Positions 2,239 through 42,193 of a DNA stretch of 64,000 nucleotides are shown piece by piece. The notes below the pieces were generated by a model. It worked only from the letters and a program-made list of their open reading frames with translations, was not told the DNA's origin and ran no database searches. A program made the position numbers and the translations under genes. This DNA comes from Bryum argenteum (taxonomy: Eukaryota; Streptophyta; Bryopsida; Bryales; Bryaceae), in the NCBI GenBank assembly GCA_037043015.1, contig CM073321.1, positions 5,414,001 through 5,478,000 of the forward strand, read 5' to 3'. The number at the start of each line of letters is the position of its first letter. Within the stretch, counting starts at the first letter, position 1.

Positions 2239-3643
2239 TTCCCCGGAGCCCGTGCGTCTTCTCTTCATGATTAGGGAAGATGTAAAACTCGCGAGATTGC
2301 CAGAGACCGAGTACCGCACTCCAAAGCACACGCTTTACGAGAAGCCGCGGAAGTACAACGTGTCTCGGTATCACATGTACCCGATCGAGTTGAGGATGGA
2401 TTTTTATTTGCAGGTCATCCAACTTTTTTGCTAGGAGCGAGAGAATATTTTTCTTGTCTACGCCGGCGGAAAAGCAGTCTACGCAAGCGTGGTAAGCTTC
2501 CTTACAATTTAGCTCCACTCGAGCTAAACTGACGTACTCAATTTGCTCTTATATTTTTCCCTACAGTTTAGCTCGAGTCAAGCTAAACTGTATTGCAGTT
2601 TAGCTCGACTCGAGCTAAACTGTATAGCAGTTTAGCTCGACTCGACTCGAGCTAAACTGTCATACCCATATGGACCTTACAGTTTAGCTCGACTTGAGCT
2701 AAAGTGTCATGCTTGTTTTCCAACCATGTTCGCTCCAGCTTCAAATTTATTTGTTGTCTAAGCTACAATGTTTTTTTGTAGATGTTGTCTCTCGATGCCT
2801 ACCCCATATTCGATGCCGAAGATAAAGAGGACATCGACCAAGCGTTCATCGATGGGCTTACTCTTGATCCCACTGACTTCTCTCTAAACGGCTATTTAGT
2901 CGCCAAAGTCGAGTTTTCGGAGGTCGGGGCCATGCTCTTGAAGGGCAAGCGCAAAGCTGTTGCGTCCTTGGATGATGAGGCCCTAGACAATGAGGCAGAC
3001 GTCCCCGACCGTGATGATTCTGGGTCAAGCGGAAGGCAACTTCGCGGTGAAGGCAGCACTTACAGCCTTGGTTCCGTTGGAGATGACGATGAGCAAGACA
3101 TGGAGTTGGACACAACCCCTCGGACGCCGCAGGAGTCGCGTACCGCTCCTGGGCGAGGAGGCGGCAGGGGGAGTGCAAAGCGGAAACATAATCCCCTGTC
3201 GAGGGACTCACCCTCAAGTAGGTTCAAGGCTGAGGAGAGTGTGGAATTTGCAGCACTACAACGTAAATTCGAGGAGGAGACGACACACTAGAGGAAATTG
3301 GAATAGCTCCTTGCGCAGCAGCAAATTGCGCAGAAGGAACGCGATAGGATGGACCAGGAACGCGATAAGATGGACCAGGAACGCCATGCCCAAATGATGG
3401 AGATGATGCGGGTTTTATCTTCCGGCAAGCCATTAACTTCCGTTCAAACAATGGCAATCACTACTGCTTAGAGTGGTGATGCAAGTGCTCCACATGCTGG
3501 TCCTACTACTTCGCAACCACTTACGTCCTCGCCGCCTCCAACTGCCAAGCCTTCCGCGCCTGCGCCTTCCTCTCCTGCGCCGGAATTACGACCTGAGGGT
3601 GACGCAGAAGAAGAATCTACAAGTCCTCCTTCATCTTAGATTT
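2239..3643 (+). pseudogene. Truncated methyltransferase-like gene copy (inverted partner of 18149-19505)
   Basis: The first exon (about 2239-2491) encodes the region RLLFMIREDVKLARL ... YHMYPIELRMDFYLQVIQLF ... LVYAGGKAVYASV. The second exon (2782-3643) opens with MLSLDAYPIFDAEDKEDID, then an acidic, Ser-rich stretch, a basic KRKHNPLSR patch and a Gln/Glu/Arg coiled coil (QQQIAQKERDRMDQERDKMDQ) ending in a Pro/Ser tail. The intron 2492-2781 is GTAAGC...TTTTTGTAG. It aligns residue for residue with the minus-strand gene at 18149-22469, but starts abruptly at 2239 and contains a few in-frame stops, so it is a 5'-truncated pseudogene. It retains a longer C-terminus than the minus-strand copy, which shows how the intact protein probably ended. 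Confidence 0.7.
2505..2706. repeat. Palindrome cluster A (5 copies, intronic)
   Basis: Five copies of a palindrome with 13-bp arms CAGTTTAGCTCGA around a single G/C: 2505-2531, 2564-2590, 2596-2622, 2628-2659 (expanded centre with an extra CGACT) and 2680-2706. All lie inside the intron 2492-2781. Spacers between them are unrelated in sequence, so the palindrome itself is the conserved unit. Confidence 0.9.
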
Positions 3644-3740
3644 TGGATTGAGTGTATACTATTTAAGCTGTAAATGCCGGAAAACACATATACATGTGAA
3701 ATTTTGTATCTAACTCTAAGACATTTTTTTGTAATTAATA

Positions 3741-3769
3741 CACTACAAGAAAACCAGCCCAATGTGACT
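3741..3769 (+). repeat. Left terminal inverted repeat of the CACTA element
   Basis: CACTACAAGAAAACCAGCCC followed by AATGTGACT; pairs with 16034-16062 with one mismatch. The ATA just before it is repeated after 16062. Confidence 0.95.
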
Positions 3770-4673
3770 ACGTTTTATGACCACAGTAGGGCATAAACCA
3801 AAATCTGAGTAGCACTGTTTCTAGTCATTTTGGCTTAGTCGCTTCGGACAATCTGACTAGGGGTCATATCGGACACTTCTTGTTCCCAATACCGCGTTCC
3901 CACAGTGTTTTGGGACCTCAAAACAGGACCTGCAGTGGGACTTGGGACGATGTGACTCTATACAGTCATATCAGTATGATTACACGTAGTCATCTTTATG
4001 AAAATATTAATTAAATTACTGACTATTTCTAGTGAGGTATTAGTCAAGATAATGCCAGTTTCATCAGTACGCATAGTAGTGAGATGGTGACTAAATTTAG
4101 TCGTTCATTGGGTTGGGAGAACGTGACTGATTGAAGTCACATCTATTTGACAACCCCTAGTCACTAATAATCAAATAGCTTCGGAATGCTATGACTATTT
4201 TTTGTGAGATACTAGTGCTCAAATCAACGGTTTTATCACTTCGCATAGTGATGTGATGGTGACTGCATTAAGTCATACATAGACACGACCTCTGTACAGC
4301 CACATCGAAATGACTATACATAGTCTCCATGCTGAAATCTTTCAATGGACATGACTAATTGTAGTGAGGTGTCTTTAGAATAAAGTAGTGGTTTGATCAC
4401 TACGTATAGTAATTTATCAGAAGCATCTGACTAGAACTTGACTGTCCGTAGTCTAATGCAAACGTATGCCATGGAGTCAATTCTGCCATTCTTACTGTGT
4501 GTAGTCATAGATTTCAGTTTTAGATTAGGGTGATGTTGTGATCTGCTGACTATTACAAGTCAGCCATGCTCTTCTGAGCACTGCGTCAGGCCAAGCAAGT
4601 GATTTTTACACATTCAATTGAAAGAGGGAATTCGTGTTCAAACAGGATGCACTCCAACTGGAACTTGGTCAGC
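3770..4673. repeat. Left subterminal repeat region of the CACTA element
   Basis: No coding sequence. Dense short words TGACTA / TAGTCA and ATGACTANNNNTAGTCAT-like pairs occur in both orientations. In this family such motifs are the binding sites of the TNPA-type protein. Confidence 0.75.
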
Positions 4674-7600
4674 CTAAATTGCTTGAGAGAAGGACAGATC
4701 AATGTCCATGAACTCTGTGGGCCACAGTACAAAGTGCCCTATTGCTTGTCCTACCAAGGTCACAGGAGGATCATCTAGATCTACCGGAGCAAATAAACTG
4801 TAGTCGTCATCTAGGCTTTTCACCACTTCTACGTATTAATCGTTCCTACAAATATGGTTTTCCCGTGAAGAGAAGCCCCAGCTACATTCTGCACTTTCCC
4901 GATTGCGACAACCTTATCCTCCTCCCCGTCTTCAAGTCCCTTGAGTCTCACAGGGTCACCCTTCTTGAACTCTGTGTCCTCCCTTTCCTATACAACCTAT
5001 ATTAAAAAATATGCACAGAATACAAAGATCAGTTGGGACTAAATTCGGAGCCTTGATACACAGATGTACTGCTCCAAGGCTCGTGGCACTTATTAAAATT
5101 CTATGTCTGTGAGGAGTCACATATGTTAACGTTATTACTAATCTCAGTCACGTGTTCTAATTCTATGACTGTCTCTAGTTAAGAATGGTCAGTCGATTCA
5201 TGGAAATGACTACAAACAGTCACGAACTTGGCATACTGAATTTATACAGAACTAAGACACAACATTCCACAATGTAGCTAATGGCACTTACAGCTGAGCT
5301 CATCGGTGCGTTCACGTTTTTCTTCAGTCTCACAGGGTCATCCTTCTTCAACTCGGGTCCGAGAGGTTTCTTGTACAACCCGTAAAAGTAAAAAGAAAAA
5401 AACAAAAAACGAGGATCGGTTGGGATCGGATTGGAGCTTTTAGAAATAAAAGTGTGATAATATGAGGTTTACTACACATACATGTTCACTTACCAATGCG
5501 TTCATGTTTCTCTTCCTCTTCCCTTTCGCTCACTGCTCTCTCAATGTTGCCTTCCTTGTTTTTTCCAGCTTTCTCCTTGCTCCCGGACCGCATTTGCTTC
5601 TTTTTTTCATTCCGGTCTTTCTTCAGCTTCAGAACCTCTGTCTTACGCATTTTCTTCTGGGTGCTAGTGTCCTCCTTTGCATGTTTTGAATACCGCAAAT
5701 TTCGAGTCGTGTACACAACTTGGGCACGTTCTTCTCCCCCTGCCACAGTTGGTGCACTGCAATCTGGAGTGCCTCCTGCGGGGTTTTCCAAAGTTCCTGC
5801 TGTCTGTGAGTCCTTCACGTCACCTACTGCAGGAATCTCCACTGCCTTACCCGCATTCTCGCAGCCGCACCACGCCCCTCCTTCCTGCAATCCCAATTAA
5901 GTACAGAGGCAATATGTCAATAGGGATCCTCTCAGTCATTGCTTTTACTCATGAGCAGCGTTTGTGGTTCCGTTTAACAATGCCACACCTTCTTGACCAT
6001 TCTAGTCACTTGTTCAAATGCTATGACTGTCAGTGGTAAGAGGTTCTAAATTGGGGACTGTAAGGAGTTACATATTCTAACTTTATTACTAATAAATAAC
6101 AATCACATACTCTACGTTCATGACTGCATCTAGTCAAGCTTGGTCAGTTGTTCTACATCAATGACTACAATCAGTCACGAAAGCCTTGGCATATTGAATG
6201 TTGCAAGAACCATATTTGTACAACACATCAAAATCATATTTGTACCTGTACTGCTAGAATACTTTCGTGATCATCATCTGCCTTTCGTGAAGTGTCGGTG
6301 CCGGTGGCATCTGAGCTGGATCTGCTTTTCTCAGTTGCTGCCTTCGTGGGGGTGACAACGGGAATTTGCAGGTGCTGCATGATGCGTTCAAGGTTCTTCT
6401 CAATGGATTTCCGCCAATCACTATCGTGCTGTGGTTGTGCATTAGACACATGGCTACTCGGTGAGGTTTCCTTTCCCGGAATGAGTCTTCGAGGGGCATG
6501 TTTGACCCGTACAAGCTCCCTTTCAATTTCACCCCTAGTTGGGCTTCTCTCGAGCTCAATGGCCTGCACAAGAGATGCTACGTTCACTGGTTAGTGGTAC
6601 ATGATTAGTGCCAAATGATGAGGCTTCTCTCACAATTAGACACACAGTCAACACACAGTCGCGGGCTGAGGAATAAGCTGCTGCGGTCAACTGTCCTCGA
6701 AATGGGATGGGTTAACTTGGGTCAAACATCTCTATGTCTAAACAGAGTCACGAATTTGGACAAGATGACTGAAAATAAGCACAACCTCGGTTTCGATGAC
6801 TACAGTCACAAATTTGATTCAGATGACTTAGAACAAGCAGAAACTCGGTTTTGATGACTCCACCTAGTCATTTTGGAGCTTAGTTTGCGCAATGGCACAG
6901 TTATACAGCCTCTGAGATCAAGAGCTCTAATGGACTTTTGACGTAATTTAATCAGAATAAATGCAAGTGTCTCCAAATACCAGTGATCATCTGACTTTGC
7001 TGGCGGTCTAGAAAGCGTTGAATGCTTGTGATGAATGACATAAAAACATAGAATGAAAACTTACCAAGTTAGCTCGAACATATTCTTCGTTGCGCCCGGT
7101 TGAAGACGGCTTCCTCACTTGCGCACGCCTGTATCGCAGCTTCTTTGCTTCACGCTGTTTTTTCTCCTCCAAGATGAGTTCTGACAACTTTACCCAATGG
7201 TCATGCCGAATGTGCTTTGGCTTCTCCTTCCCTTCTTGCATTCTTTTCTTCAACTGGTATCTCTTCACCTTCAACTGGCCCTTCAAAATGCTATGGAAAG
7301 CCTCCTCTGTCACCTTGCCAAGGCCCCCATGGTACTCAAAAGTGTTGTCCACTCGTTCCTTGACAGCGAGCAACATAGAAGTGCTGAGATTCTTGTAGTT
7401 GTCTTCGCTGAAATCTATATCCTGCGCATGACCTCGAAGACAAGTTAGCCACAACGATCTATTTTGTCCTTGCGGACGTCCTCTGAGATCCACCTCAATA
7501 AGGTGTTTTCTGGGCCCTCCGTATGCCAGGCTGTGACTTCCTGAGCTTGTTGTTGCTTCAAAGCAACCCGTCGTCTAGACTTCTGGTCTCTGCAATATGA

Positions 7601-10080
7601 AGGTTGACCAAAGCTCTCAGTCATCTCTGATGGAGAATATGTAGAGGAGTTTGCCCGGGGCTCCTGCAACTCCATTGCTCGCCTCCATTGCAATAGTTGC
7701 AGGTGTCTTTCTGCAATTTCAAAGTCCAAGCTACTAATGGACCCATGCCGATGAACGGCTAAAGGCTGGCCACGCAAAGGAGGTGTGTTGCCTCCCGTTT
7801 CAGGATGAAGATCGGGTGCAACATCATCGCAGAAATCAAAGGCCTCCCCTAATAGTGAATCCTCTGACATCTTCGGACGTTTTCTTTGTTGAGGTGGAGT
7901 GATTAGCTGCGGGAAACGGCTTGTTGACTTGGGTTTGGGAATTCCAGAACTTCTTGGGCCTCGCTTGCGCACCTCCCACTGTGATGGCTCTGTTGTCGGT
8001 GCTCTACCCTGCATAATGCGTTCAGCAGTAATCACGGTTAACGTTAAGGTTAATCATTGTTGCAGTGCATGTCACTAGGACCAATCACAAATCCAAAACA
8101 TATATGGAGTTTGATAGTCATCTATTCAGTCATACATCTTGAGCATGATACGGGTTTAGTAGTCAGAATTCTCATTCATGTGATTAGTAGTCACTAGACC
8201 TTAGAAACATGACTAAAATTTCAAAGCAAGCAAATACAAAATCCATGCCACACAATCAAACACCCACCATGACTGCAGTTTCAAGGAAGCAAACACATAT
8301 GCAGTTTCAAGGAAGCAAACACATCTGCAGTTTTAAGGAAGTAAACAGAAACTCCTACGCGCAGAATCAGAATGAAGCAAACATGCTGCTCAACTGAAGC
8401 TAACTCACCTAGGTTTCAACCATGACTACATTTCGAGATGGTCAACACTCACGAACAGGGCTACGTTCCAGAAAAATGAATCATCTACACTAAGAACAAC
8501 AAGATGGCACGCAACAAGAACTGGAAGCAAAAACAAACATCAGTCTAACATGAAACCTGCCATCCGTAATCACTTCAACACTCCTTGCTGGGAAACATGA
8601 GCAAGCAATCACTCCAATCTATACATGAAGCGAATTGAGGGAATCCATGCCAACTACTGAAAAAACAGTCATGTAATTTCAAGCCCCAGAAGATAATACT
8701 CACAAATCAGTCATATATCTTGAGCATGAAATCAGTCATATACCTTGAGCACGGAAATCAATCATACACATTGAGCATCAAATCAGTCATATATCTTGAG
8801 CAACGAAGATAATACTCACAAATCAGTCATATATCTTGAGCATGACCAACATCAGCTTGACATCCTCGGCACGATATAATCAGTGTCCTCGAAAATTTCT
8901 GGAGCTCTAACGGCAGCCTCCTGGAAGCTAACTCACCTCAAATCAGAGTCCAGGCAGTGGTAGTTTTCTACAGGTAGTGAGCTGATCGATATCTCCACTT
9001 TGATTAATCAATCATCGATCAGTCCTCGAAAACAGTCCATACTGCATATTTTGAACTTGTCGGTACGAGATGGGTGGATGAGCGTTCCACAAAAATGAAT
9101 CACGAACAATAGGATTGAAAAACCAACATCAGACTGACATCCTCTCTAGATACAATCAGTGTCCTCGAAAATTTGCGTGCATGACTACAAGTAGTCACAA
9201 AGCCTGGGAGTATGACTACAATTTGAAGGCAACCATGACGATGTGGCAATGCAATTTCAAGCATAATGAAGTAAACATGCTACTTAAATGCTGTCTCGAA
9301 GTTCCAACTATGACTACAGTACCAGACTTGCTCGTGAGAACTGATGTAACTCACCTGAGAGTTTTGCGATTCTTGCTGGGCCTTCTGCACTCCTACAGGC
9401 AAAACCTCCTGATCGTCGCCATAGCCAGGCTCCTCATCGCTCTCCGTTTTCTCCTCTTCGTTGTGCCACTCTTCGGAGCTGCTCGCAGGTTTCTTGGAAT
9501 CCGTGCACTTCTTCCTACGCTTGCGTGACGTCCTTCCAAGCTTTGGTGGCGGTTGTTTGAGGCGCGCACTCCTACGCACAAGTTCACCACCCTCGCGGCA
9601 GTCGTCTCTATAGTTCAACCAATAGGGTATTGTGATGCTCAGCCTTCTGCAGATCGAGAGTAAGAGGTAGCTAGGGTTTCACTAGGGTTTGTACCCGTTT
9701 TGGAGGCTGCTGGCGCCGGCGCTGCGATCGTGGATCGACGTCGCCGCAGTGTTCCCCGCTCCTCCCCCTGCTTCGGCGCTGCTAGGAGCCCTCGCGGTAT
9801 TCCCCTCTCCTCCCGCCGCTTCGGTGGTTGTGTTCACGAAAACAGATGCTGCGAGAATTGGGACTCCGAGCTCTTGTAGCTTGAGAGAGTTTAATCGTAT
9901 ATTATCCTGCCGCAGCCTCTCGTACTCTGGTACTGTAGCGTCCTCGTCCCTCGCCGATCCTTCCTCAACTTCCTCAGATCCGTCGGATTGCGTCTCGGAT
10001 TGCGTATCGCCTGCAGAGGTTTCGAAGGTTTCGGAGTCGGTCGCCGAAGGCGCTTCATCGGCGTACGTGGGCGTTGCCAT
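4674..10080 (-). CDS. TNPA-like (plant Transposase_24/Ptta type) accessory transposase gene
   Basis: Minus-strand multi-exon gene. Exons read: 9695-10080 (ATG at 10080; MATPTYADEAPSATDSE, acidic then Ala/Gly rich), 9355-9646 (IPYWLNYRDDC, then VRRSARLKQPPPK and a basic RKRRKK patch), about 7443-8008, 7065 to about 7431 (DIDFSEDNYKNLS ... HIRHDHWVKLSELIL ... basic), 6246-6563 (AIELERSPTRGEIERELV), 5494-5884 (Lys/Glu-rich coiled coil), about 5290-5380 and 4674-5005. The last encodes FKKGDPVRLKGLEDG ... KVVAIGKVQNVAGASLHGK and ends FMDIDLSFSQAI. The HWVKL and GDPVRLK..VAIGKV blocks match the organisation of plant Transposase_24 proteins, which bind subterminal repeats. A frame change is apparent near the 3' end (about 4830). 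The 5290-5380 exon looks like a duplicate of the 3' exon start. Confidence 0.75.
8009..9354 (-). other. Long intron of the TNPA-like gene carrying CACTA motif repeats
   Basis: Between two exons with good splice sites (donor GTGAGT at 9354, acceptor CAG at 8009). It contains several approximate repeats of the type AATCAGTCATATATCTTGAGC (8700-8850) and CAAGGAAGCAAACACAT (8280-8340), plus TGACTA words like those at the element ends. No coding sequence seen. Confidence 0.55.
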
Positions 10081-11116
10081 CGCGAGAGGGAGCAACAGCA
10101 GTAATGCATGGGAGGAAATCCAGCGCCCTTGCAATCGCCATTTTGAAAAAATTGGGTACGATCCGCCGCCACCGTGAACTTCAAAACTTAATGCAAGGCT
10201 GGTAGCACCACTATGCTGAAACGAGCGCCAAAGCCATAAACTGCATTAATTTTAGGGCTCTGTAAAGTGGTAGGGTCGCAAATGTCATCCATTCTACTGA
10301 GACGGAGTTGTATGTGACTGAAGACAGTCACAACCGGAACACCTTACATCTGAGAGCAACAATGACTGCCTCCAGTGAGAAAATGGATTCGTTTCTCAGG
10401 AACTGGATTTGAAGAATCCTTTGATTGTGATCCCCGGTCAATTTACAAAGATTGTACTTGATTGCAGAGATTGCTTGTACGGTTTCATTGAGTCGAAATC
10501 CTTGAATACATATCGAGATCAATAGTTAGCTCTTTGGTGCATGTGCTTGTAGGCAGTCACAAAGCATATCAACCTGCATGCTAGATTCAAGTGTGAGTCT
10601 ATTTTAATTCAGGTACTGTGATGCCATTGTTGTAGTGTTGAGACTGTACGTCTGTACTATCACGATTGCCTGTAGGTTTCAGATATCCTTTGAATGGTAG
10701 AGAAGAGTATACAACAAGGTGCACATAAACTGCATTAGAATTTCAGCAGCGACCATTCTGGCGTGATTAAGGTAGTTTCTTCTCTTGTTTCTAGTGTTCC
10801 TAATGTAATTTCTTCTTGCGTTTACTTGATTTACCAAGTTAGTTTTGTTTGTCAATTAAGGTGCTCGGTAATGGCTGAAGTTTCAGCATGGGCATCTTTG
10901 ATGAAGTGCGCGAAGTGATCCACTGAGAAAAAGTACTTACACTAAAAACTGATGTTTTTTTCAATTTGTTACATGTGCCTTTACATGCAATTCCGGGTTT
11001 CTATGGTACCTTCTCTTGTGATAGTTAATATTAGCTTTGAAAGTATTTGATCCGTTTCAAATTGAATGATTCGGTTTCGAGTTTTTCTCTTTGAATTTGT
11101 CCTCTTCAATCAGTGG
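10081..11116. promoter_or_regulatory. Divergent intergenic region between the two CACTA genes
   Basis: About 1 kb separates the TNPA-like start (10080, minus) from the first transposase exon (11117, plus). No gene is seen. TGACT/AGTCA words recur at 10310-10370, 10545-10560 and elsewhere. The position implies that the promoters of both genes lie here; no specific promoter element is convincing. Confidence 0.5.
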
Positions 11117-14100
11117 ATGTATCGTGATGCTCAGACTGCTGCACAGTTATTGCTTCTAGGTGTTAAAAAGGTTGTAATGCGTGGTGAAGACGATCTGACA
11201 AAGGTTAGTCATAAGTTTGGTTTATGGGACGGTACGCAGTCACACAATTTCATGATATGGCGACTTCAGTAGTCAGTAGTTTGGTTCATGTAACTGACGG
11301 TAGTCACGGAGTTTAGACTTTGATTGCAAAATTCAACCCTGATTCTAGTATAATAAAGGTATTGAAATTCATGTGCTGGATTTTGCGTGTTGTGTGTATA
11401 GGAGCAGGTGCCATTGACCGCTTTATATTTGCAAGTGGCTACCCGTGGTGTGAGGATGGCAAACGACCTTGACCTTTGGGAATTGGAGGAGAGAGAAGCA
11501 AATAGACTGGGGCTAACCAGTTACCGTTGCCCATGCAAGAATTGTATGGGAGGTCGTTGTATCAGTAGGGCAACCATTCGGAAACATCTAAGGACCATTT
11601 GAAGGGACCCTCAATTCACTGTGTCTGTTTTGGTATGTCTAAACTATGTGATGTAATAAGCAAGTCATTTGATGTCCAATGCTAAAATACTTTCAATGAT
11701 TAATTTTAAGAGTGTGCTATGCTCAGGCGGGTCTTGTGGATGCGGAAAACGACATTGTCGAAGAAGAAGTCAGGGAAAGCCCTCCTCAGCTTGAGGACGA
11801 CAAGGTGGGCATGGACACAATAAGAATGATCATGGAGTGCCTCTCTAGATACGATAACCTCGAAGACGAAGACCGTGAGGATTGTACTCCAACAGACGAT
11901 GTGGAGGAGGATGACGCAATGTTGTGGGAGGAAGGGGAGTATACGGCAGATGTAATGGAGGAGTTACTGGAGCATGCCCGAACTCCTCTTTTTGCAGGTG
12001 CCGCAACAAGTCGATTGGTCTCAACTCTCCTGCTACTCAATTGTTTTGCGGTGTTTGGAGTATCGAATGCATTTGCCGATGAACTACTTCAACTGCTGCA
12101 TATTCTCCTTCCAAGCGACAATTACCTACCCCGTTCTCACTATGAAGCCCGAAAGTATGTGGTGAAGTTGGGACTGTCTTATAATATTATACATGCATGC
12201 CACAATGGATGTTGTCTGTTCAGGAATGAGTTGCAGGATGCAAAGTTCTGTCCAAAGTGCAATGCCTCGAGATACAAGTCGGAGTCTAGCCGAATCCCCT
12301 CCAAAATGCTACGCCATTTTCCGTTGATTCCCCGTCTGAAGCGCATGTACCGGTGTAGAAGACTAGCGGAACTTAACAAATGGCACGCCAATCAGAAGGA
12401 GGGGAGTAACATGGATTGCGTCCTCGATTCGAAGGCCTGGAAGCACATTGAGTCTTTGGATGCTAACTTTACATCTGAGCATAGGAACATACGCTTGGGG
12501 ATGGCTCTGGACGGAGTGAATCCTTTTGGAAACCAGTCGCTCAGTCACTCCACATGGCCGGTTCTCCTGGTGAACTATAATTTGCCTGCATGGCTAGCGA
12601 CAAAGCCATTTTTTATCATGCTTGCATTGTTGATTCCAGGGAAAGAGAGTGTGACATCGGAGAACATCGATGTGTACCTTACTCCACTAATTGAAGAGCT
12701 CTTGGAACTTTGGAAAGGGGTACCAGCGGTAGATGTGTCTGAAGAGCCTTGTAGACAACATTTTAAATTGCGGGCTCTTCTTCTTTGGTGCATTCACGAC
12801 TTCCCTGCGTACGGACTAACATCTGGCCAAGTTACAAAAGGGTATAAAGCGTGTACGGAGTGTGGGCCAGATGTTACAACTCGGCGGTCAAAGGCTTTAG
12901 GAAAGAATATATATGTAGGTCACCGCAGGTATCTCAATAGATGCCATCCTTATCGTAGACTGAAGCAAGCATTTGATGGTCAAAAGGAGCACCGGCCGCC
13001 TCCTCCAATTCTAACAGGATGTGACATCAAGTGCTATGCACAGGAGAGAGTAACCTTCTTGCAGGGGTCACACGGAAGAAGAGGTGGAGGAGAAGGAGAC
13101 CCCATTCACCGGACCGGAGTGAAGCGGCTCTCAGCTCTGTACTTGCTGCCGTATTGGCAGGTACTAAACGCATTCACTGGTTCCAATAACTACTTTCAGA
13201 ATTGTTGACTAAATCTAGTAACATTCTTGATAAGAAGGTTGACTATGAAAAGTGCAATGGTTGACATCCATCACTACATGTAGGGAGAAGAATGAATATG
13301 GACCTATATCTTCTCTCTGAATGCTTGACATTATTTGTCAATAGAATAGTGAGAAAATCTGACGCTTGAATGCTATGCTGGGATTTCTGGCAGGACCTCC
13401 TCATTAGACATGTTTTGGATCCCATGCACTGTGAAAAAAACATATGCGAGAACGTATTGAAAACAATTTGGGGAGTCCGCGACACTTTGAAGGTCAGGCT
13501 AGACTTAAAAGAGGCCAATATTCGACCACATCTGCACCCGCTTCCTGGAAGGAAACCTGGGTCCATCGTACTTCCAACAGCTTCTTATGTACTATCAAAA
13601 GAGGAGAAGGGAAATTTTTGGATATTATCCGCAATTTGAAGACTCCTACAAACTACGCTGGCCAACTTGCGAAGTGCATTGCGTCGGATGGGGACTTAAA
13701 GGGGCTGAAATCTCATGACTACCATGTCTTGATGCAACAGTTGCTCCCTTTGTGTTTACGCACTCTCTTGGACAGGGATACACGGGTGGCAATTATGCGG
13801 CTTAGTCGTGTGTTTGTACGATTGTGCGCAAAGTCCGTAGATCCATCATCCATGGAACAGTTATTGGAGTACACAGCAGAGACACTATGCATGCTAGAGA
13901 AGGTTTTCCCACCTTCATTCTTTGATGTCATGTCACACCTCCCCATTCACCTGGTGCAGCAGTTGGATATATGTGGTCCAGTACACACCCGATGGATGTA
14001 TCCTATTGAGCGATACTTGAAGAGACTAAAGGGCTATGTTAGGCAACGAGCAAGATCCGAGGGATCCATGGCGAGGGGGTACATAACAGAGGAGGCATTA

Positions 14101-15347
14101 GGATTTTGCACAGAGTACATGCAAGACTGTGAGCTAACACGCATGAGGATCTGGGACGATCAGGAGGAATTAGGGGCCAAGAGTGAGGTCGTGGAGGGTA
14201 CAGGTCGATATCGACTCTTGACATCAGAGCTCAGGGCATGGATTTACGAGTTTGTTCTCACGAACGCGGAGCCTCTACAGTCATACAGAGAGTAAGCTTC
14301 ACTTACTTAAGTCATGTTCTTTGTCTAGAAGGGATGACGTGACTGTGTGCAGTCATGCATTTACTCTATTGCGTACTAATTCTAGTCCGATTATTGCAAC
14401 ACATGACTAGAGAATGTTTTGCGGGCGATTTCTCCGAATGCTCCCCGAATTGTTATCTAAAAACTTTCCATTCACTGTGGCTTCTAAGCAGACGCCACTA
14501 TTTGGAGATGGAAGCGCGGCACAGAATACGTGTGGAGATACGTCGTCGATCACGGGGTAGAAAAGTAGAGTATCCACCAATCGCAAGGAAGGAGGAGTTT
14601 TCTGAGTGGTTTACTGCTGCAGTGCAACGGGATGTGGCAGCAGGCACACACGTCGATGAAGATGTTCTCGGCCTTGTCTTGCCACCTTCATGTGAGGCAA
14701 AATCCTATCGCAGCATGTATGCATACGGGAACCATATACGTGTGCACGGAGCAGAGGTAGACTTGTCAACGTGCGACAGCGGAGTAGCTGCAACTTTCTC
14801 ACAATCTTGCCGTGCCAGCAGATTGGACAAGAACCACAGGCTTGCAAACGTGGAGTACGTGGGGTGGGTCGAAGAGATTATTGGTGTTGACTATGGGAAG
14901 TTTGAGTTACTGCTACTGTATTGTAAGTGGGTCCAAGCTACATGGATTGGGCCACGGGCAACTATGAAGAGAGATGAATACGGGTTCACTCTCGTGAACA
15001 TAGACCGTACCATTCCGTACTCATCAAATTCGTTTGCGTTTCCTCTTCACGCTCAACAAGTCTTCTTTGTTGACGATGTCGCACATCCAGGGTGGAAGGT
15101 TGTTTTACACAAGGAGGCACGAACTGTGAGAGTGACCTCTGTGGCTGAGGGAAGACCAGATCTACACTGCCTAAGCCTATTGGACGATGCTGAAATTCAA
15201 GGATTGATGGCACAGAAGGTCATTGATGATACCACAACAATGCCACCTGTTTTATCAAGTTCTAGGGAGTTGTCTAGCAACGAGGTGCAGCTTGCTCTGC
15301 AAATGAAGGATACAGAGGCGGACTACAATGACGAGTCAGCAGAGTAG
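11117..15347 (+). CDS. TNPD-like transposase (tnp2 family) with DUF4218 and DUF4216 regions
   Basis: Five exons in phase: 11117-11203, 11402-11632, 11727-13160, 13394-14291 and 14492-15347. Exon 2 holds the N-terminal zinc-finger-like CPCKNCMGGRCISRATIRKHL typical of this family (HL.. RDPQF continues it). Exon 3 is the tnp2 transposase core (CHNGCCLFRNELQDAKFCPKC ... LKRMYRCRRLAELNKWH ... LGMALDGVNPFGNQS ... CIHDFPAYG ... GYKACTECG), and exon 4 continues it with DLLIRHVLDPMHCEKNICEN. Exon 4 then gives the DUF4218 region (GPVHTRWMYPIERYLKRLKG) and exon 5 the DUF4216 region (FELLLLYCKWVQATW, DEYGFTLVNIDR). It catalyses excision and insertion of the element. Oddities: an in-frame TGA at 11600, where relatives have Gly before RDP, and a one-base frame change in a T run near 13615. 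The ATG at 11117 gives the only start that splices in frame. Confidence 0.9.
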
Positions 15348-16033
15348 GAGTGTAGGAGCCCAACTACTATCCGTAGAATTTTGGCACATCTGAGGAGTAG
15401 TCACAGAGATTGCACAATTAACAAATTAGAGAGGTATGGAGAAAGGCAGTTCATTACCAATACAAGTAGAGAAAACTATCCAATTGACTATGTAATTTTC
15501 CGATCATTGCCAATATGAGTAAAGAAAATTGCGCACATGACTACAACATTTTGCAATCACTTTGCAATCACTTTGACATCTCAAAATTAGTTCGTGCATC
15601 TTGAAAGTAAGGGGAAAGATAGGAAGTGAGGATTTTGGACCTACTCCAATTTAACATCACTCACCCATTGAGCCAACGTGTAGAGGACTTCAAAATCATT
15701 TGATTGACATATATGACTACTATTAGTCAGTTATTTACTACGTGATTGTATATAGTCACCCGAACCAACTCTAATACTACAATACAACATACATAAACAA
15801 AATACCCTTACCATATGACTACATTACTATGACTACACATAGTAAGCACTCAGAGCATGAGTCTGGGAACCGGGCAGGTGAACATATGTCGCGTTCCCAT
15901 AGCCGTTCCCACCCAGGTCCTCAAAAATATGACTACATGTATGACTAGTGCATGACTGGACCCTCGTAGGACTGATTTTAGACTAAACCAATGACTGAGG
16001 TGACTAATCAGTCACATGCCGGTCATATCACCC
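15348..16033. repeat. Right subterminal repeat region of the CACTA element
   Basis: No coding sequence. TGACTA/TAGTCA and ATGACTACA words are dense from about 15700, mirroring the left end. Confidence 0.75.
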
Positions 16034-30096: not shown

Positions 30097-33000
30097 CTAC
30101 CGGGTCGGGGTCGAAATGTTGGATACTAACCAGGAGGACAGTATTGTTCGGTAGAACATATTGTATCCGGTAGGGTCCGAACCACTTGCCACGTAGTTTG
30201 CCTGCATGTAGGTTAGCGCCTTTTGGGTACCACAGACATAGTCGCCCACATTATACTTCTTTGTGTCGGGCCTTGTGTCCGGCCCATTGGGCCTGTTCAC
30301 TGCGTGGCTCCGTGATGGAGCGCGGCGGTGTGTCGGGTTTCGTCCCGGCTTCTCCGGTCGGCTACTCGAGGTGATGAGAACACGCTTGGGGTCGAGATCT
30401 AAGGGTCCCGATCGTAATGTCGGTATGACATATTCGGTCGGCATCGAGGTGTTAGTCCATAGACTAACCGGGAAAGGAGAGTGGCCATCACTACCTTGTA
30501 GGCGATCCTGTATGCAAACAGATCAGTATGTAGCTGGACATCCCGGGCCGGTTCGGTTGTGGTCGACTAACCTCGCAAAGATACGGACGATCACCTTGTT
30601 GGTCGACTCTGCCTGGCCGTTTCCTTGAGGGTAGTATGTCGTGGACGTTGTATGACGCAGTAGAAAATGGTTGGTCAGGGTCTGGATCGTCTTGTTAATG
30701 AAGTGGCTGCCTTGATCGCTTACCAACTGCAATGGGCAGCTGAATCTCGTCAAGATCGCCTCGTACAGGAACTTGGCGGTCTCTTTGGCAGTGTTGCCAC
30801 GTAGTACGCGAGCTTCGACCCACTTGGTGGCATAGTCGGTTGTACTAGGATGTACCGACACCCAGTTTGTTGGGTCTTGACTACTGGTCCAATGAAATCG
30901 AGTCCCCACTTCATGAAAGGTTCGGCGGGAAGCTGCGTTACCAGTTTCGTGGATACCGACTTTGGCAGACCACCCGACATTTGGCAGTCGTGACACGACT
31001 GGCAATACCGGACAGTGTCCTGGTATAGGGTCGGCCACCAGTAACCTGCATCCAAATTTTTCTCACCGTGATGTCGTGTGAAAAGTGACCTCCAGCGTTG
31101 CCCTTGTGTAACTCTTGCAGAATAGTTGTCGGCTGGGTGCCGGTCAAAACCTGGCGGGTCTGCCGTCCCTTCATGTGTCGGTAGAGTCGCCCTGTATAAG
31201 CCGAAACGGGATGGCTTTGTGAGCCAACCGTTTCCGCGCTCGGTCGACATGGTGGTCGGAAACGCATCTGATCGGAGGTAGTCGACTATCGGTTGAAACC
31301 AATCGGGTCGACTTTGAACAAGTGCGCGACATTGGGCCGGTCGGGAATGCCGATCGCGGTTCAAATCCTCATTTCGTGATAGGGCGTCTGCTACTCCATG
31401 TGTCTTACCCGGTTTATATACAACCGTGAAGTCGAACTCCGAGAACAGGAGTAACCATCGGGCGAGTCGCCCGACACTGCGCTTTGTTCACCAAGTACTG
31501 CAAAGCTAAATGGTCGACATAGAACACAAATTTATTACCGAGCAAATAGTGTCGGTACTTGTTAATGGCGTAAACCATGGCGAGAGCCTCTTTCTCTGTT
31601 GTCGTATAGTTCTTCTCCGCCTTGTTCAGTAGTCGCGAAGCGTAGGCAATGGGCTGGTCGACCTTGCCGGTCGGGTTTTGTGCCAGCACTGCCCCAACAG
31701 CTATGTCGGATGCGTCGGTGTGGATATGGAACTCCAAAGACCAGTCGACTCCGATCAGAATGGGTGCCGACGTGTACTTGGACTTGATAGCCTGGAAGGC
31801 TGCCTCGCACTGGGTCGACCAGATGAACGGTTCGTTCTTCCGAGTCAGTCGTGTGATGGGTTCCATGATCGCTGCATAGTTTTTTATGAAACAACGATTG
31901 AAGACTGCTAGGCCGTTGAACTCCTGGATAGCCTTCACAGTGGTGGGTGTCGGCATGTCGACTATTGCTTGGATCTTTTTAGGATCCGGGAACTTGCCTT
32001 CCTTTCCGACTATGTACCCTAGGATGACACCTGTCGGTACCATGAAAATGCATTTTTCAGGGTTTAAACTGACCCCGTACTGCCGACATTTGTCAAAGAC
32101 CAGTCTGAGTTTTGGTAGGTGTGTCGCCATGTCGCCAGAAACACTGTCGTCCAAAAACAGCCATAAAGTCGTCGCCTGTATTCCTTGAAGATCTGGTTGA
32201 CAATGCGCTGATAGGTCGGGGGAGCATTCTTTAGTCCAAACGGCATGACAACCCAGACATACGCGCCCCACTCGGTAATGAATGCCGTCTTGGGTCGGTC
32301 GGCTGGATGGATCCGGACCTGGTGGTATCCTGAAAAACAGTCCAGGAATGAGTATGTTTCATACCCGATGACTGTGTCGAGTACCTCATCTGTGAAGGGT
32401 AGTGGGTACGGGTCCTTCTTAGCGTGGCGAAAGATTGAGTCGACGAAAGTCGACACAGATGCGCAGCTTGCCGTTCTTCTTCGGCACCACAACGATAGGT
32501 GATAGCCAGGATGCCTGGTCAACCGGTTCGATGAACCCTGCAGTTAACAGTCGCTCCAGGTCATCTTTGACCGCCTGTGCATAATTGGGATTCATGCGAT
32601 ACCGGGCCTGGTGGCTAGGCGACATGGTCGGGTCGAGTTCGATTCGATGTGTCGCTATGTGCTCCGGAATGCCTCGTAAGTCCTTGTACGAGAAGGCGAA
32701 GATGTCAACGTATTCTCGAACAAGGACTCCGCCCCCCGATTTCTCGGGCTCGGGTTGGCATTCAACTTTAGCGCTTTGGTCGGTAGGGGTACCGACGTTG
32801 ACCAGGTCGAGTCGATCGTCTTCGTTGTGGTTCCAGTGGACAATGTCCATGTACTGGAGCTTCTGCTGGATGGGTGTCTCATCGAGCGGCATCTCTCCTG
32901 GCGAATGGGGAATGTCGACATGTGGAGGTCGGGTCATCTCTGGCTCCATAGGCGGGCCTGTGGTGTCGTCTATAGGGTCGATCTGCGTCGAAAGGCACCG

Positions 33001-33792
33001 GTCGACTGGAACCGCTACCTGCAGTGAGGCTCGTGGTTGTATTGCTGGGTCGACATGTGACTGGAAATGGGGGTCAACCGTTTCCGGTCGGTGTGCTGGA
33101 GAGTCGGTCGCCAGGAGATTCCAGTCGATGGTACCCAGTAGGTGAAGGTCGGGGTCGGATGCCAGTAGTATGGCTTCTTCCTCATCTGTTAAGCCTTCAA
33201 CGAAATTATAACATACGAGGGCGTGTGGTGTAACCGCCTCGTACCCCAATTCTCGATTGATTTTGACAGTCCTAACTGTGCCATTCCCCATGATCTGCAC
33301 TTCATTATTACCCCAATTATGGATTACCTTAGCATGCCGGAGCCAGGGTCGACCCAGCAGCAACCGGTAGTCCGATTTGACTGTCGAGCAGTCCAGCACC
33401 ACCATTGTGACTACGTAAGGTATGCCATGGATGTGGATCCTGACATCCCGTAGTAGCCCTTTAGGGCGGGCTAAGGTGCCGTTTGCCATCTTCAAATTGA
33501 AGGGGGCCGGAGACGGTTTTGGAAGGCCTAACCTTTGACGCTCCTCCTCGGTGATCACATTGACCCCAGAGCCTCCATCGATAAGGGCGTCGTCGACCAC
33601 GTTCTTACCGACCGACACTAATATTACCGGCATGTGTCGATCGACCGTCTCTGCAGCGGCTATGACGACTGTTTCAGGTAGAGGGTCGACCGTAGGGGGT
33701 AGGTCGGGTGACGCCGATTGGTATAGTCGACTCCGGACTAGGGCCGTGAGTGCCGGTGAGAGTTGAAAAAGCTCTCTTAGGGACACCTGCAA
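30097..33792 (-). other. pol region of the Ty3-type fossil (PR, RT, RNase H, INT)
   Basis: Protease: ALIDGGSGVNVI near 33570. Reverse transcriptase: GFIEPVDQASWLSPIVVVPK, then FLDCFSGYHQVRIHP and VMPFGLKNAPPTYQ (32.2-32.6 kb), then the LFLDD block near 32160. RNase H: FHIHTDASDIAVGAVLAQ near 31720 and YTTTEKEALAMVYAI. Integrase: the zinc-binding region and CHDCQMSG near 31000, the core GLDFIGPV, VSDQGSHFINKTI and GNGQAESTNKVI (30.6-30.9 kb). Order and motifs are those of Ty3-type pol. The reading frame is broken. Confidence 0.9.
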
Positions 33793-33899
33793 CTTGCTGT
33801 CCCAAAAGCGCTGGTGTAGCTCGCTTAATGCCGAATCGGTCGAGTGGGATATGGTCCAGTCGGGTCGGCGGCGCCGGCGTCGTGTGGCGAAGTCGGTTC

Positions 33900-36177
33900 T
33901 TTGTGGTAGTGCCTCAATCCCAGTCGGTTTGCGCTTTATCTCGCTCCCTGGGCCGTGGATATGTAAAAGTCGGGGACTCGAGTTCTGACTGGAACTGTCT
34001 GACGTCCTGCATCATCTGGTCTCGCAGCTGCTCCTGTGCATGCCAGTCGGGTTTGTCCGGTAGGTTCTGGTCGGGTAGTGTCTCCTCCTTTAGTATCTTG
34101 CTCCGGGTTATGGCGACATCGTCACGACTCCTACCGAAGTCGATGGCGCTTCTTCTATGATCACCGCCGAGGTGGTTGGTTTTGTTTCCTTCGTCTGTTG
34201 ACTCAAAAATTTGACCACCCTTGGGTCCTTCAGCATGGGACACAAGTGTGTCGGGTGGTCCATAAGCTTACACAGAGAACAAGGGAAGATTCGTTTCGGG
34301 AAGGTAGCCCGCGGGGGTCGACCCGTCGGCCCTGCTGATGATTGGGTAAGAGTTGGTGCGGCAACTGCCACTGTCGGTGCTGCTGCTGCTCGTCGTTTCG
34401 CAAAGTCGCTCTCCGGATTCCGCCAGCAGTCGCTCTCTCCATGGCCCAATTTTTTGCACAAGTTGCATACAACTCGTTTTGTCCGGTCGACCTGATCTGG
34501 TCGGGTGGCATCAGGGGTTGGGTTGGGTTCCTTCGGTAGTCCGCTCTCGCCAAGCTTCACGATCGCTTTGCTCTGTGCTGAGTGGATCCGGGTAGTCCAA
34601 CTGCCGCTACACCGCAAATACTTCAACAAGCCACTCGAAAGTTGCTTAGTAGAAAATTGTCGGTGGAGGGACCTTGAACCCGACCAAATTTTCATCATAC
34701 GCTCATAATAGTCATCTACCGACTCCTTAGTGTCCTGTTTGAGATCATGGAAAATGAGGTAGGCTTGGTCATCATTGTCAATATCCCGATACCGGTATTT
34801 AAAGGCCTCCATTAGACCCCGCAGTCTCTTGGTAGGGTAGGGTCAACCGTTGGTTGGTGAACCAATTATAATTATTTGCATCAACTAAAGAATTACCAAA
34901 CAGGGCAATGCATATATCCGGATCGGTTTCTCCATTTAGCATCAAAGTGTTGACAAAACGGTTGACATGGGTCATGGCACACTTACCTTCTTTATAGGTC
35001 GGCATGACCACTGGTTTCCTGGCAGTCGTGCGGGTTGGGTATGCTGCTGTCGGATAGACAAAGTGTGGTGGGACCGCTCGCTCTGCAGTAGCGGGGTATG
35101 GTGGTACCATACCTGTCGGATAGACGGGCGGTACAGATGTAGATATCGCCGAGCGATCGGGTAGGTCGGTCCTACCGCCGGGATAGACAGGTGGTACTTG
35201 ACCAGTCTTTGTCGGAACGGCTAAGTAAGTCGGTCCCATCTGCCGAGTAGACAGACGGTGGTGCCGCACTGTCTTTGTTGGTCCTGGCCGCCACTAAATA
35301 GGGCGATTTCAAAAGTATGACCCGGTGTGACAAAGACGCACACACCGACGGATGGGGTAGGGTGGTTGGTCGGGTGACCGTTTGTATAGGTGCACTCGGT
35401 AGACTCACACCGCATAGGTAGGGACTGTGGGGTCTACCGGTCGACCATAAGTCTTTGGGCCGAGAATGGCCGAGAATAAGCCGAGGATGATACAGTGTGG
35501 CGGTCGGTCGGGTAACTAAGACCCGTTGTGCCGGCCGTGCGATGATGACGGTGTTGGGTCAAAACCTGTGGGGTCGACATTCTATGGTCGGGTAGGTGGT
35601 TGACAGGCGGATCTAATGTTAATACGTCCGGTGGGTGTGTGCGAATGTTGGGTAAGGCGGGTCTGACTGCTAGCGGGTCGACTCCTTGATTATATATAGT
35701 CTGGATCTGATGGACCGTATGGGGGTCGAACTCCTGTCTAGCAGTCGGGGAAGGACTTTCTTCTACGGGTGTACCCGGTCGGCTCACCATTGGACCAGGA
35801 GAACTAGGTTCCTGGTAAGATGATGCCGTCTGGGGGTTCCGACCTGGTAGGGGCGGGTGCTCTGTCTGGCCCGGGTTAGACAACAGAGTGGCCAGACGGA
35901 GGTCGAGTTCGGCCCGACTACTACGTAGTAAATCAATTTCGTGCTGACGCTCTTGCATAATGATGGACGGGTCAGGATTGTACCTGACAAGCCGCTGGTT
36001 GGCACTAGACGGTCGATCAGGAAGTGGTGGTTGGTCGTCCCTGTTCTGTCGGGGCGTTGATGGGTTCGAAATCGTATGTCTCGCCACACTAGGTCGGGTG
36101 TAGTGATCCGCTGTTGACGATGTTAGTGGCAAATTGGCCACAGGTCGGGTCGGGTCGGTATACCCGCCACGATTCAT
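33900..36177 (-). other. gag region of the Ty3-type fossil
   Basis: A Pro/Ser/Thr-rich N-terminal region (about 35434-36177), a capsid-like core (HVNRFVNTLMLNGETDPDI ... FKYRYRDIDNDDQAYL, 34.7-35.0 kb) and two CCHC knuckles: CNLCKKLGHGESDC near 34460 and CSLCKLMDHPTHLC near 34270. Two knuckles is usual for several plant Ty3 clades. The reading frame is broken. Confidence 0.8.
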
Positions 36178-37048
36178 TGGAAAAGACGTTTCGTGAAAGA
36201 CTGTACCTTCTGGGTGTATTCGACCAGGTGGTGCAGGGACGCTTCATCCGACGTGGATGCAGAGACTTGTCTTCTGACGCTATATGTCGGGAGGAGGTCG
36301 GCCCTTGGGGTCGACTGTCGGGTGTCTAGAGATGGATTTATCCGGGACTGCAACCTGCGCCATTCCCGATACTGATGCGGAATTTTCCACCGGTCGGGGT
36401 GGTAAGTCGATCGCTCAGAGAGAGCGGCAAGACGCGCGTGCGTGGACCCGTCATAATGGTGACGTGTCACTTTCGGATCGAGATCCGATTTTTTCGGATC
36501 TCGATCGAGATCTAGATCTGAATCAATCTGATCCGCGGTAGAGTCCGAGGTCGCAGATGCTTGGTCGGTGTTTTGTTTTGTGTGAGCTCACTTAGTTGCT
36601 CTTTTGGCACCGTGAGCTTCTTCCACACACCGCTCTACATATTTCTTAGCACTCTTAGACGACTCTACTTTTGCTGGATAGACACGTAGCGACTATGATC
36701 TCCGAGGCGCGTTTTAGCTATGTTGCCGTACTCTCACCCGACTAGGTCGATCTTTGTTGAGTGTAGGAGACATTTTTTACTTGAAACCTTGATACCAACA
36801 ACTTCTGTGTCAACTGACCGGTAGGTTGCATACTCCTAAACCTCTATAGCAGACACTTTCAGAGCAGATTTGTGCAGGGTCGACATCCGGGTCGGCATGC
36901 TCTACACGATTTCTACTTGTTTACGGATCTAAAATGTTTGGACTGCACAATCGCACGGTAGCCCAATGTTGAGGGAGATCTACTGCTCTACTTCGGGATC
37001 TGCGCGATCCGGAAACGATGGAATCGAACTCAAGCATAGGTCGCCAAA
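36178..37048 (-). other. Leader region and primer-binding site of the Ty3-type fossil
   Basis: Minus-strand sequence just inside the 5' LTR reads TTTGGCGACCTATGCTTGAG (PBS starting at about 37046). TGGCGACC would pair with a tRNA ending GGTCGCCA, resembling the Arg/Asp-type sites of Tat elements rather than the initiator-Met site. The rest of the leader has no clear gene. Confidence 0.55.
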
Positions 37049-37642
37049 TGTTAAGGGGTTTTTCAAACCATACCCTATCGAGTCTAAGTTAATTTCCTAC
37101 TAGTCACAATAACGTCGGGTTATCAAAACTGCGACTAGCAAGAAGGGAAGGGAGTTTACTCTACCGACTAGTGAGTATCTAGAGGGACCGGGGCGACTTT
37201 AGGTCGGGTCTGCTAAAACACTAGAGAGAGAGAAAACACACGATTCTCACAAAAAAGATCGTAGATCCCGCAAACAAAAGTCGGCTAGTCTATTCAAACA
37301 CACACAACGGAAGAACAGAATAGAAGACTATGCAGAACTCCGAGGTTACTGGCAAAGAGGGATAGATTAACTAGCAACAACCCTCACGGAGAAGAGGGTG
37401 GTACATATAGTCGGCTGGGTCTGACTGACTGTCAGATCCAGCTGAGAACAACAGGTCAGCCGACGAGTCTGCCAGGTCGGCCAGAAAGGTCGGGTGTCCA
37501 AAATGAGTCTAAGACTCTAAAAACAACAACTAGAGATCCGACCTGCTAACCCCACCGGGTATCGCCTGCCGGGTCTATACCTGCCGGGTAGAGACTAGAC
37601 TAAAAATAGCCTAGCGAATATACTACGAATATTCCGTTAACA
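37049..37642 (-). repeat. 5' LTR of the Ty3-type fossil
   Basis: 594 bp, TGTTAAGGGG...TTAACA, followed by TAAAC. Differs from the other LTR at roughly 15-20 positions by eye. Confidence 0.95.
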
Positions 37643-41080: not shown

Positions 41081-41089
41081 TATAACCCC

Positions 41090-41212
41090 AATCCCGCCAA
41101 TTTTCAAATGGCGGCACTTCTGTTCCCCCCTTTTCTAAACAGACGACACTTCAGTTCACGCCAATTTTCAATTGTCGGGACTTCGGTTCCCGCCTATTTT
41201 CTATTTTTGGGA
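41090..41212. promoter_or_regulatory. E2F-like repeat promoter region
   Basis: Three diverged tandem units of CGCCAATTTTCAAATGGCGG / CGCCAATTTTCAATTGTCGG / CGCCTATTTTC. The first reads TCCCGCCAATTTTC (complement of TTGGCGGGA) and the last TTCCCGCCTATTTTC, both close to the plant E2F site TTTGGCGGGAA. They precede the locus that contains palindrome cluster E and the DUF7869-like gene. Confidence 0.45.
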
Positions 41213-41712
41213 TAGCGCGAAAACGGTATTGCGCTACTGAATGACCTTCGAAATTGAGGACAGAATGATTCTTTTCTTCTCAATCTTTGAGGGTACTGAA
41301 CTCCGTCGACATATTGGAGTTCTCCGCACTTCCTTCAGCTCGCTCTCCGCCTTCGCGTACGTGTTTCGCGATTGCATATATGCATGATTATGCGTTAAAA
41401 TTGCTTTGCACAGCTTTACGCATTTTCTGATTCATTGTTGTTCATAGTTTTCTCTTTATCTACAGTAGTAGTAGTTGAAAATTTCTATTGTACGTTTGTA
41501 ATTTAGTGGCTTGTAGTTAACAATTGTGCATTCGGAGCCGTTGTTGTTGACATATTCTTTTGATTTGACGATTTCGTTGGTACTGGGGTGGGTCTTGATT
41601 CCTGCGTGTGACGATGGAATGTGAGAGCCCTGGTTGTAACTGCTTTTCGAATTCTTAATGACTCCCAAGAAGTACGCCATAATTTTCGGGATTAATCATG
41701 CATCATGACATG
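41213..41712 (+). other. Presumed 5' leader or first exon region, not resolved
   Basis: Several short ATG frames occur (41239, 41661 with MTPKKYAIIFGI), none decisive. The region sits between the E2F/telomere-like block and palindrome cluster E, so a first exon and a splice donor are expected here. Confidence 0.25.
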
Positions 41713-42193
41713 CAGTTTAGCTCGAGTCGAGCTAAACTGTATGGCCTGCATACTCTTGCAGTTTAGCTCGAGTCGAGCTAAACTGCAGTACGTCTTCGAT
41801 CTTACGGTTTAGCTCGACTCAAGCTAAACTGCTGTATGTATCCAGTAGAGCAGTTTAGCTCGACTCGAGCTAAAGTGTTCAACAGAAGACGTACTGTAAG
41901 TTTATACAGATTAGCTCGAATCGAGCTAAACTGCTGTGTGTATCTAGTAGAGTAGTTTAGCTTGACTCGAGCTAAATTGTTCGACCGAAGACGTACTGCA
42001 GTTTAGCTCGACTCGAGCTAAACTGCAGGAGTATGCACGCCATACAGTTTAGATCGACCGGAGCTAAACTGCGTTATGCATTCAACTCGATTCGAGCTAA
42101 ACTGTTCTAAATACATACAGCAGTTTAGCTCGAGTCGAGTTAAAATGTAGAATGTGTTTTCTACTTCTGTTTAGCTCGACTCGAGTTAAACTG
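41713..42193. repeat. Palindrome cluster E (about 11 copies, presumed intron)
   Basis: Copies begin at 41713, 41759, 41805, 41851, 41907, 41953, 41999, 42045, a partial near 42079, 42121 and 42167. Copies are spaced at a regular 46 bp (with one 56-bp step), unlike the irregular clusters elsewhere. An acceptor CTTTTGTAG at about 42277 follows, directly before a coding exon. The host gene is unrelated to the methylase-like gene. Confidence 0.9.

Follow-up and report, generated by a model that had tools for sequence, protein, structure and literature searches.

Intronic palindrome arrays in a multigene DNA transposon of the moss Bryum argenteum and a methylase-like protein as their candidate reader

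The stretch of DNA analysed here (the window: 64 kb, C1:5414001-5478000, C1 being contig CM073321.1 of the 258.8-Mb, 25-contig genome of the moss Bryum argenteum) holds parts of two copies of a multigene DNA transposon, whose noncoding parts carry arrays of a 27-bp palindrome, CAGTTTAGCTCGASTCGAGCTAAACTG. Between 2505 and 42193 we found 36 matches to this palindrome at up to 3 mismatches, against an expectation of 0 and a largest count of 0 over 100 dinucleotide shuffles of the window. At up to 8 mismatches there are 41 rows, two of which (2628 and 2633) are overlapping halves of one disrupted site, in line with the "about 40" of an initial annotation. The matches form six clusters (Table 1), and three of these, as that annotation had said, lie in or beside a methylase-like gene (18149-22522, minus strand). 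The centre in the window is mostly GAGTC or GACTC. Its earlier description as GANTC, the site of CcrM/HinfI-type methylases, is literally true, since in a second family of the element (family B, 97 sites: C 29, T 27, A 25, G 16; 0.0 bits) each of the four bases is found at the centre. However, GANTC is forced by TCGA-N-TCGA, and its presence is therefore not independent evidence for methylation.

We considered and rejected a single element spanning 2505-42193, as this span combines portions of two element copies with two nested insertions. The minus-strand copy comprises exon C (18149), exon B, exon A and the DUF7869 gene, ends near 45168, and is split by a long terminal repeat (LTR) retroelement with Pfam matches to reverse transcriptase/RNase H and weak ones to gag and protease. 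A plus-strand 3′ fragment (2237-18089) is split by a CACTA transposon (3741-16062), and its 3′ part forms inverted repeats I1-I3 with 18202-19511 at 84-89% identity. None of the palindromes listed for the window at up to 8 mismatches lies inside the CACTA transposon, and none inside the LTR retroelement; that the palindromes are subterminal sites belonging to this CACTA transposon was rejected for the same reason, all of them being outside it. At 18089-18149 the two truncated copies meet head to head, both without right ends. The part of the element that separates the LTR retroelement from the 5′ region of DUF7869 includes a strongly AT-rich stretch (37600-41600, GC 0.255), and a second DUF7869 relative, in pieces of 42-67% identity, lies at 56214-58658.

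Table 1 Features of the window, with positions counted from its first base
Feature	Position	Strand	Evidence or remark
3′ part of second element copy: end of exon B, palindrome-bearing intron, exon C	2237..3348	+	tblastn
End of exon B; exon C	2237-2497; 2782-3348	+	tblastn to element protein, 80%; 75%
Exon B-exon C intron of plus-strand copy	about 2492-2781	+	borders GTAAGC...TTTGTAG
Palindrome cluster in this intron	2505..2706		four at ≤3 mismatches and one disrupted
Nested CACTA transposon, separate	3741..16062	+	terminal inverted repeat CACTACAAGAAAACCAGCC... (inverted repeat I21), ATA on both sides
CACTA domains (Pfam): Transposase_21; DUF4218; DUF4216	11712-13208; 13444-14295; 14355-15347	+	
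Plus-strand copy resumed past the CACTA insertion, to truncation	16063..18089	+	90% by blastn to E1 19654-21636
Single perfect palindrome 5′ of NIF/FCP1-like frame	16084..16110		one site at the same place in E1-E7
NIF/FCP1-like phosphatase-domain open reading frame	16541..17290	+	PF03031, E 2.1e-13
Exon C of methylase-like gene, minus-strand copy	18149..18778	-	intron borders GTAAGC...TTTTTTGTAG
Nine palindromes (≤4 mismatches) in exon B-exon C intron (18779-19259)	18854..19247		
Stretch with exon B (about 19260-20612)	19230..20625	-	one stop codon here; methylase-like fold in C-terminal half
Five palindromes in exon A-exon B intron (about 20613-21037)	20664..20974		
Open frame with exon A (about 21038-22469)	20936..22522	-	ParB/DGQHR-like motif DFRIINGQHSVAASKE
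Eight palindromes (nine with degenerate 22874) upstream of exon A	22546..22944		before 3′ splice site TTTTTCACAG
Nested LTR retroelement, separate	25223..37551 (approximate)	-	LTR stretches 98% identical
Ten palindromes (eleven with degenerate 42078) in presumed 5′ intron of DUF7869 gene	41713..42193		
3′ splice site of presumed DUF7869 5′ intron	ending 42278		TTTTGTAG
DUF7869 gene, putative transposase, degraded here	42280..44729	+	tblastn pieces 42277-44708, 46-62% to L009 protein
Left end of minus-strand copy	45168	-	terminal inverted repeat minus outermost bases

Seven C1 clusters with their surroundings (E1-E7) show a constant gene order as far as the stretches extend: the DUF7869 gene (outside the stretch examined for E7), an array just upstream of its start, 6-8 kb in which no gene was identified, and another array ahead of exon A; exons A, B and C follow, with palindromes in both gaps between them, then a lone palindrome and an NIF/FCP1-like open reading frame (ORF). 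The introns are those predicted from splice sites and reading frames. Copy-to-copy homology ends sharply at inverted repeats, AACCCCATATTCGTTATATTkGGAA, and the five copies with both ends measure 17.3-19.1 kb; the outermost palindromes of E2 lie about 3.4 and 2.4 kb from its ends. Genome-wide, this terminal inverted repeat (TIR) has 160 + 146 matches at up to 3 mismatches and its reversed control 0. The flanking 4-mers, read by eye, are identical in four of the five two-ended copies and differ in E5. A 4-bp duplication also accompanies 10 of 13 further TIR pairs, selected by distance only, compared with 3 of 156 cross-pair controls, and no pair matched at 2, 3, 5, 6 or 8 bp. Because the TIRs stand at sharp homology borders and the duplications are fixed at 4 bp, the palindrome-bearing element is a TIR DNA transposon.

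The DUF7869 domain is recognised at E 1.7e-42 in the protein of a database relative (L009, CADCWO010000071.1). A structural model of a DUF7869 protein (predicted template modelling score 0.46) gave no significant fold match. Conserved aspartates in MHDKMDH, VQMDN and VGHTHDDID would fit a DDE layout, and we infer from these residues and from its place in the element that the protein is a putative transposase. With DUF7869 and 4-bp duplications, the element is a candidate new superfamily of plant transposons. The family is large and apparently undescribed; we found no description in the open-access literature, covered by full text for "DUF7869" and by titles and abstract openings for related topics. 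The NIF/FCP1-like ORF, of 269 amino acids without stops, is whole in E1, E2, E4, E5 and E7, in pieces in E3 and not seen in E6, with a ratio of nonsynonymous to synonymous substitution rates (dN/dS) of 0.24-0.64. HAD phosphatases carry a DxD motif, at the place of which this ORF has LDLNG; its catalysis, too, may thus be altered. In E1, more exon-like stretches lie between this ORF and the right end. The gene-free middle encodes His-rich (HDHVHGHGHVHGH) repeats in E1 (about 13300-13790) and in E2-E5, and Met-rich repeats in a frame overlapping the His-rich one occur in E1, E3 and E4.

A genome-wide count gave 4,766 matches to the full palindrome (up to 3 mismatches) and 7,962 to a 23-bp pattern, GTTTAGCTCGANTCGAGCTAAAC (up to 2), with 0 matches to either reversed control. 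All 31 clusters that we examined on C1 stand inside element sequence or close to it, which links the palindrome to the element beyond the window. They comprise 21 from the first 100 perfect palindromes listed (C1:0-15.13 Mb) and ten picked from the first 100 GTTTAGCTCGANTCGAGCTAAAC matches listed (C1:0-9.57 Mb); the sample from other contigs consists of L072 and L073, both picked for an exon B match. Among the 21, seven were read whole, nine as 2.5-kb pieces and five by neighbouring exon B, which matched inside the cluster or within about 4 kb. Seven of the pieces (L034, L035, L036, L038, L039, L040, L041) show DUF7869, exon A or exon B directly, and the 2.5 kb adjoining the other two carries exons A and B of a diverged family (L033, from L068) or matches the interior of E4 at 84% (L037, from L070). 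Each of the ten clusters from the looser list (L074-L083) has exon B of a distant third family next to it, 28-38% identical to relatives. Of the 100 listed perfect palindromes, 70 have a listed exon B match no more than 20 kb away, as against 8% of random points. Genome-wide exon B counts are lower bounds (94 rows, 91 of 1,088 candidates scored); the figure for the 31 clusters also draws on DUF7869, exon A and blastn evidence. Of the 94 exon B rows listed, 73 fall on C1 (44.1 Mb, 17% of the assembly), a skew that is perhaps partly a family effect because the list favours the window's own family. C1 may be a sex chromosome. A named DUF7869 relative from Ceratodon (KC19_VG296900) lies on a 110.5-Mb contig that is, by its tag, the V chromosome.

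The site is shared between deeply diverged families of the same genome. Beside the window's own family A, these are family B, at L072 and L073, with an exon B of 56% identity, and family C, in the left part of L025, with one of 30%. Palindromes of family B are placed as in family A, ahead of exon A and in each of the two gaps between the three exons, and those of family C flank exon B on both sides. The consensus is CAGTTTAGCTCGASTCGAGCTAAACTG in family A (132 sites, six copies), nAGTTTAGCTCGANTCGAGCTAAACTn in family B (97 sites, four stretches) and, with other flanks, GTTTAGCTCGASTCGAGCTAAAC in family C (8 sites, one locus). All three have the core TTTAGCTCGANTCGAGCTAAA in common, and the flanking bases are family-specific. 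Five family B copies (C2, C5, C8, C9, C10) have no stop in exon B.

Traces of the palindrome also appear in relatives from other sources. Of 59 exon A relatives in the databases, 13 have a predicted protein with a translated palindrome (e.g. SLARLELNC, QFSSTRAKL) beyond the presumed splice junction (0.26 in shuffles), and five of the 13 (P0014, P0019, P0021, P0028, P0029) rest on an L[ED]SS word near the C-terminus only. The same is seen in 6 of 33 exon B relatives (0.16 in shuffles), two of which (P0130, P0151) rest on the four residues L[ED]SS only; relatives without the peptide may simply end before the intron. For DUF7869 relatives the count, 1 of 66 against 0.45 in shuffles, is uninformative. 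Upstream of the DUF7869 ORF of L009 there are three palindromes, at 0, 1 and 4 mismatches. L009 is filed as an uncultured Synechococcales cyanobacterium; its moss-type DUF7869 protein suggests moss DNA that was placed in a metagenome bin. The partial protein P0031, filed under uncultured Leptolyngbya, looks like another such mis-binning; apart from it, the named database relatives are from the mosses Physcomitrium patens and Ceratodon purpureus. The genome itself has 90 matches to chlorophyll a/b-binding proteins, and on this ground and that of the moss relatives we rejected a fungal origin, which base composition had suggested.

Exon B, modelled on copy E4 (L023:6337-7728), has a predicted fold matching beta-class methyltransferases including CcrM, with motif IV before motif I; the predicted local distance difference test score is 64 overall, with 10-residue means mostly 78-90 in residues 271-400 and dips to 57 and 52. 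The beta-class catalytic motif (D/N/S)PP(Y/F/W) is absent from exon B. At the place of DPPY stand D277 F278 R279, invariant in 21 of 21 aligned rows, and a lysine replaces the second glycine of motif I. The interpretation of the initial annotation is partly supported. Its beta-class motif order agrees with the predicted fold; the catalytic motif is lost, and we reject an active methylase. A profile search gave no sequence-profile match to beta-class DNA amino-methyltransferases. For the proposed ParB/DGQHR-like N-terminus, a weak match (TIGR03187, E 0.0085) was obtained in 1 of 21 sequences and none in the window protein itself or to ParB-type Pfam families, and Pfam scans of the exons and their relatives gave no informative domain. 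Exon B2 is under purifying selection (dN/dS 0.12-0.40; copies with more than one stop dropped, here E3 and E6). We infer from the model a methyltransferase fold without its catalytic motif, which would be used only to read DNA.

Taken together, the palindromes may be cis-sites of this moss transposon, bound by a protein of the element and keeping it active, an interpretation in which we place roughly even confidence. A dimeric, element-encoded protein would recognise two half-sites of 10 bp, TTTAGCTCGA, and leave the base between them unread. Our guess is that the binder is the exon A-B-C protein, the most likely candidate as a pseudo-methylase. The many sites per element would allow cooperative, element-specific loading, and introns would tolerate such arrays without change to the proteins. 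Loading might then keep the element's genes transcribed or free them from host silencing, as VANC does in VANDAL transposons, an anti-silencing role that this analogy suggests.

Several observations weigh against this interpretation. Unlike VANC motifs, the palindrome sites do not diverge quickly. The observed/expected ratio of CpG is 0.89-0.98 in five elements and 1.03 in the LTR retroelement, and because the latter is also near 1, a value near 1 is uninformative. DUF7869 relatives without palindromes nearby occur at 56214-58658 in the window, where the 5′ part is missing, and at 24996-27771 in E1, at the limit of the stretch examined. The dN/dS of exon C is mixed (0.15-1.00). Lastly, among 319 palindromes oriented by transcript (all three L009 sites included; L033, L037 and later stretches left out), both arms are changed together in 56, against 26.8 under independence, an excess that decayed copies swell by an unquantified amount; 31 of the 56 are complementary. 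These double changes lie mainly at outer pairs 1-3 (39), and core pairs have 17 against 5.6, 9 of them complementary. This excess is the main point for pairing or for a copy-correction process.

A more specific version, which we consider unlikely, posits a eukaryotic counterpart of parS/ParB nucleation: the ParB/DGQHR-pseudo-methylase protein would load on the intronic palindromes, spread, and hold the element open and unsilenced, in a moss transposon group of superfamily level. On this account, site and protein would have stayed together even as the proteins drifted apart to 30% identity, so that a dead enzyme of restriction-modification type would have become an anti-silencing DNA reader.

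That the palindromes act in RNA, through hairpins in the pre-mRNA or duplexes between sites, with an effect on splicing, on retention or on the production of small RNAs, is likewise doubtful. The clusters do sit in stretches resembling transcribed introns, and the excess of double changes is what pairing would leave. However, positions 4-24 bar the centre are 91-99.7% conserved, and these include A13 and T15 beside the centre (97%), which could only be loop in a hairpin. Further, single transitions that keep a wobble pair are no more frequent than those that break it (115 vs 111, p 0.84). Because A13 and T15 are conserved though unable to pair, and because a wobble-keeping excess is absent, the balance favours a DNA-level site, probably read as two half-sites.

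The DUF7869 protein might instead bind the palindromes, which would then take part in synapsis or end activation during transposition. Internal or subterminal transposase sites occur in other transposons, and the DUF7869 5′ intron has arrays like those of the exon A-B-C gene. The moss sites, however, lie kilobases from the ends, packed in introns and not beside the TIRs, and we regard this use as improbable. Arrays without function for the element, spread by tandem duplication and conversion inside introns, would explain the 46-bp spacing in 109 of 330 neighbour intervals below 130 bp and the copy numbers that vary between element copies; yet a core common to families at 30-56% protein identity, with differing flanks, and the traces in relatives from other sources make this very improbable. 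Least of all do we expect an active CcrM/HinfI-like adenine methylase marking GANTC at the centres, as the initial annotation proposed, for the beta-class fold and the free N of family B stand against an invariant DFR for DPPY, the lost motif I glycine and a GANTC dictated by its neighbours.

Comparison with known systems puts the preferred reading, cis-sites bound by a protein of the element, into context. In contrast to CcrM, M.BceJIV and M.RsrI, the moss protein has lost the catalytic DPPY and S-adenosylmethionine-binding motifs, and its domain, without a sequence-profile match, lies in a transposon gene with a ParB/DGQHR-like exon. CACTA (En/Spm) transposons have subterminal TNPA-type sites, and the moss element resembles them as a large multigene DNA transposon with repeated sites resembling protein-binding sites. 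It differs in its TIR (AACCCC, not CACTA), its 4-bp rather than 3-bp duplications, DUF7869 instead of Transposase_21, and sites that are internal and intronic; in the window, Pfam places Transposase_21 in the nested CACTA transposon and nowhere else. Fungal TET/JBP transposons, as portrayed in the available portions of PMC12730594, similarly place a DNA-modification-type protein beside a transposase, but with dioxygenases, other transposases and duplications of 2, 3, 6, 7 or 8 bp; intronic palindrome arrays are not mentioned in those portions.

The closest parallel is with the VANDAL transposons of Arabidopsis and their VANC anti-silencing proteins. In the accessible parts of PMC5735166, VANC21 motifs are described as tandem repeats that sit in VANC21 and VANB21 introns and also upstream of VANA21. 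Both systems, as far as the corresponding excerpts go (PMC5735166, PMC10398659), are plant multigene DNA transposons with arrays of a short motif in introns or noncoding parts of their own genes, in which the motif is tied to the element and unit number differs between copies. In the moss, the arrays are tied to the element and noncoding in all 31 clusters examined. By the same excerpts, the moss site is a 21-27 bp palindrome where the VANC motif has 9 bp and is arrayed in one orientation, and it is conserved over deep divergence where the VANC motif drifts. A Pfam scan of the moss proteins recognised no common domain, VANC itself being outside this comparison. With its longer, conserved, palindromic sites and no recognised domain shared between the proteins, the moss element is a candidate analogue of VANC/VANDAL, not a shown member.

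In conclusion, we describe what looks like a second, independent case of a plant transposon whose introns carry arrays of the element's own motif, and a palindrome so long and conserved that one oligonucleotide suffices for a direct binding test. If the pseudo-methylase does bind it, a eukaryotic mobile element would have made a DNA reader out of a DNA methylase fold of prokaryotic type, providing a sequence-specific anti-silencing tool outside Arabidopsis.

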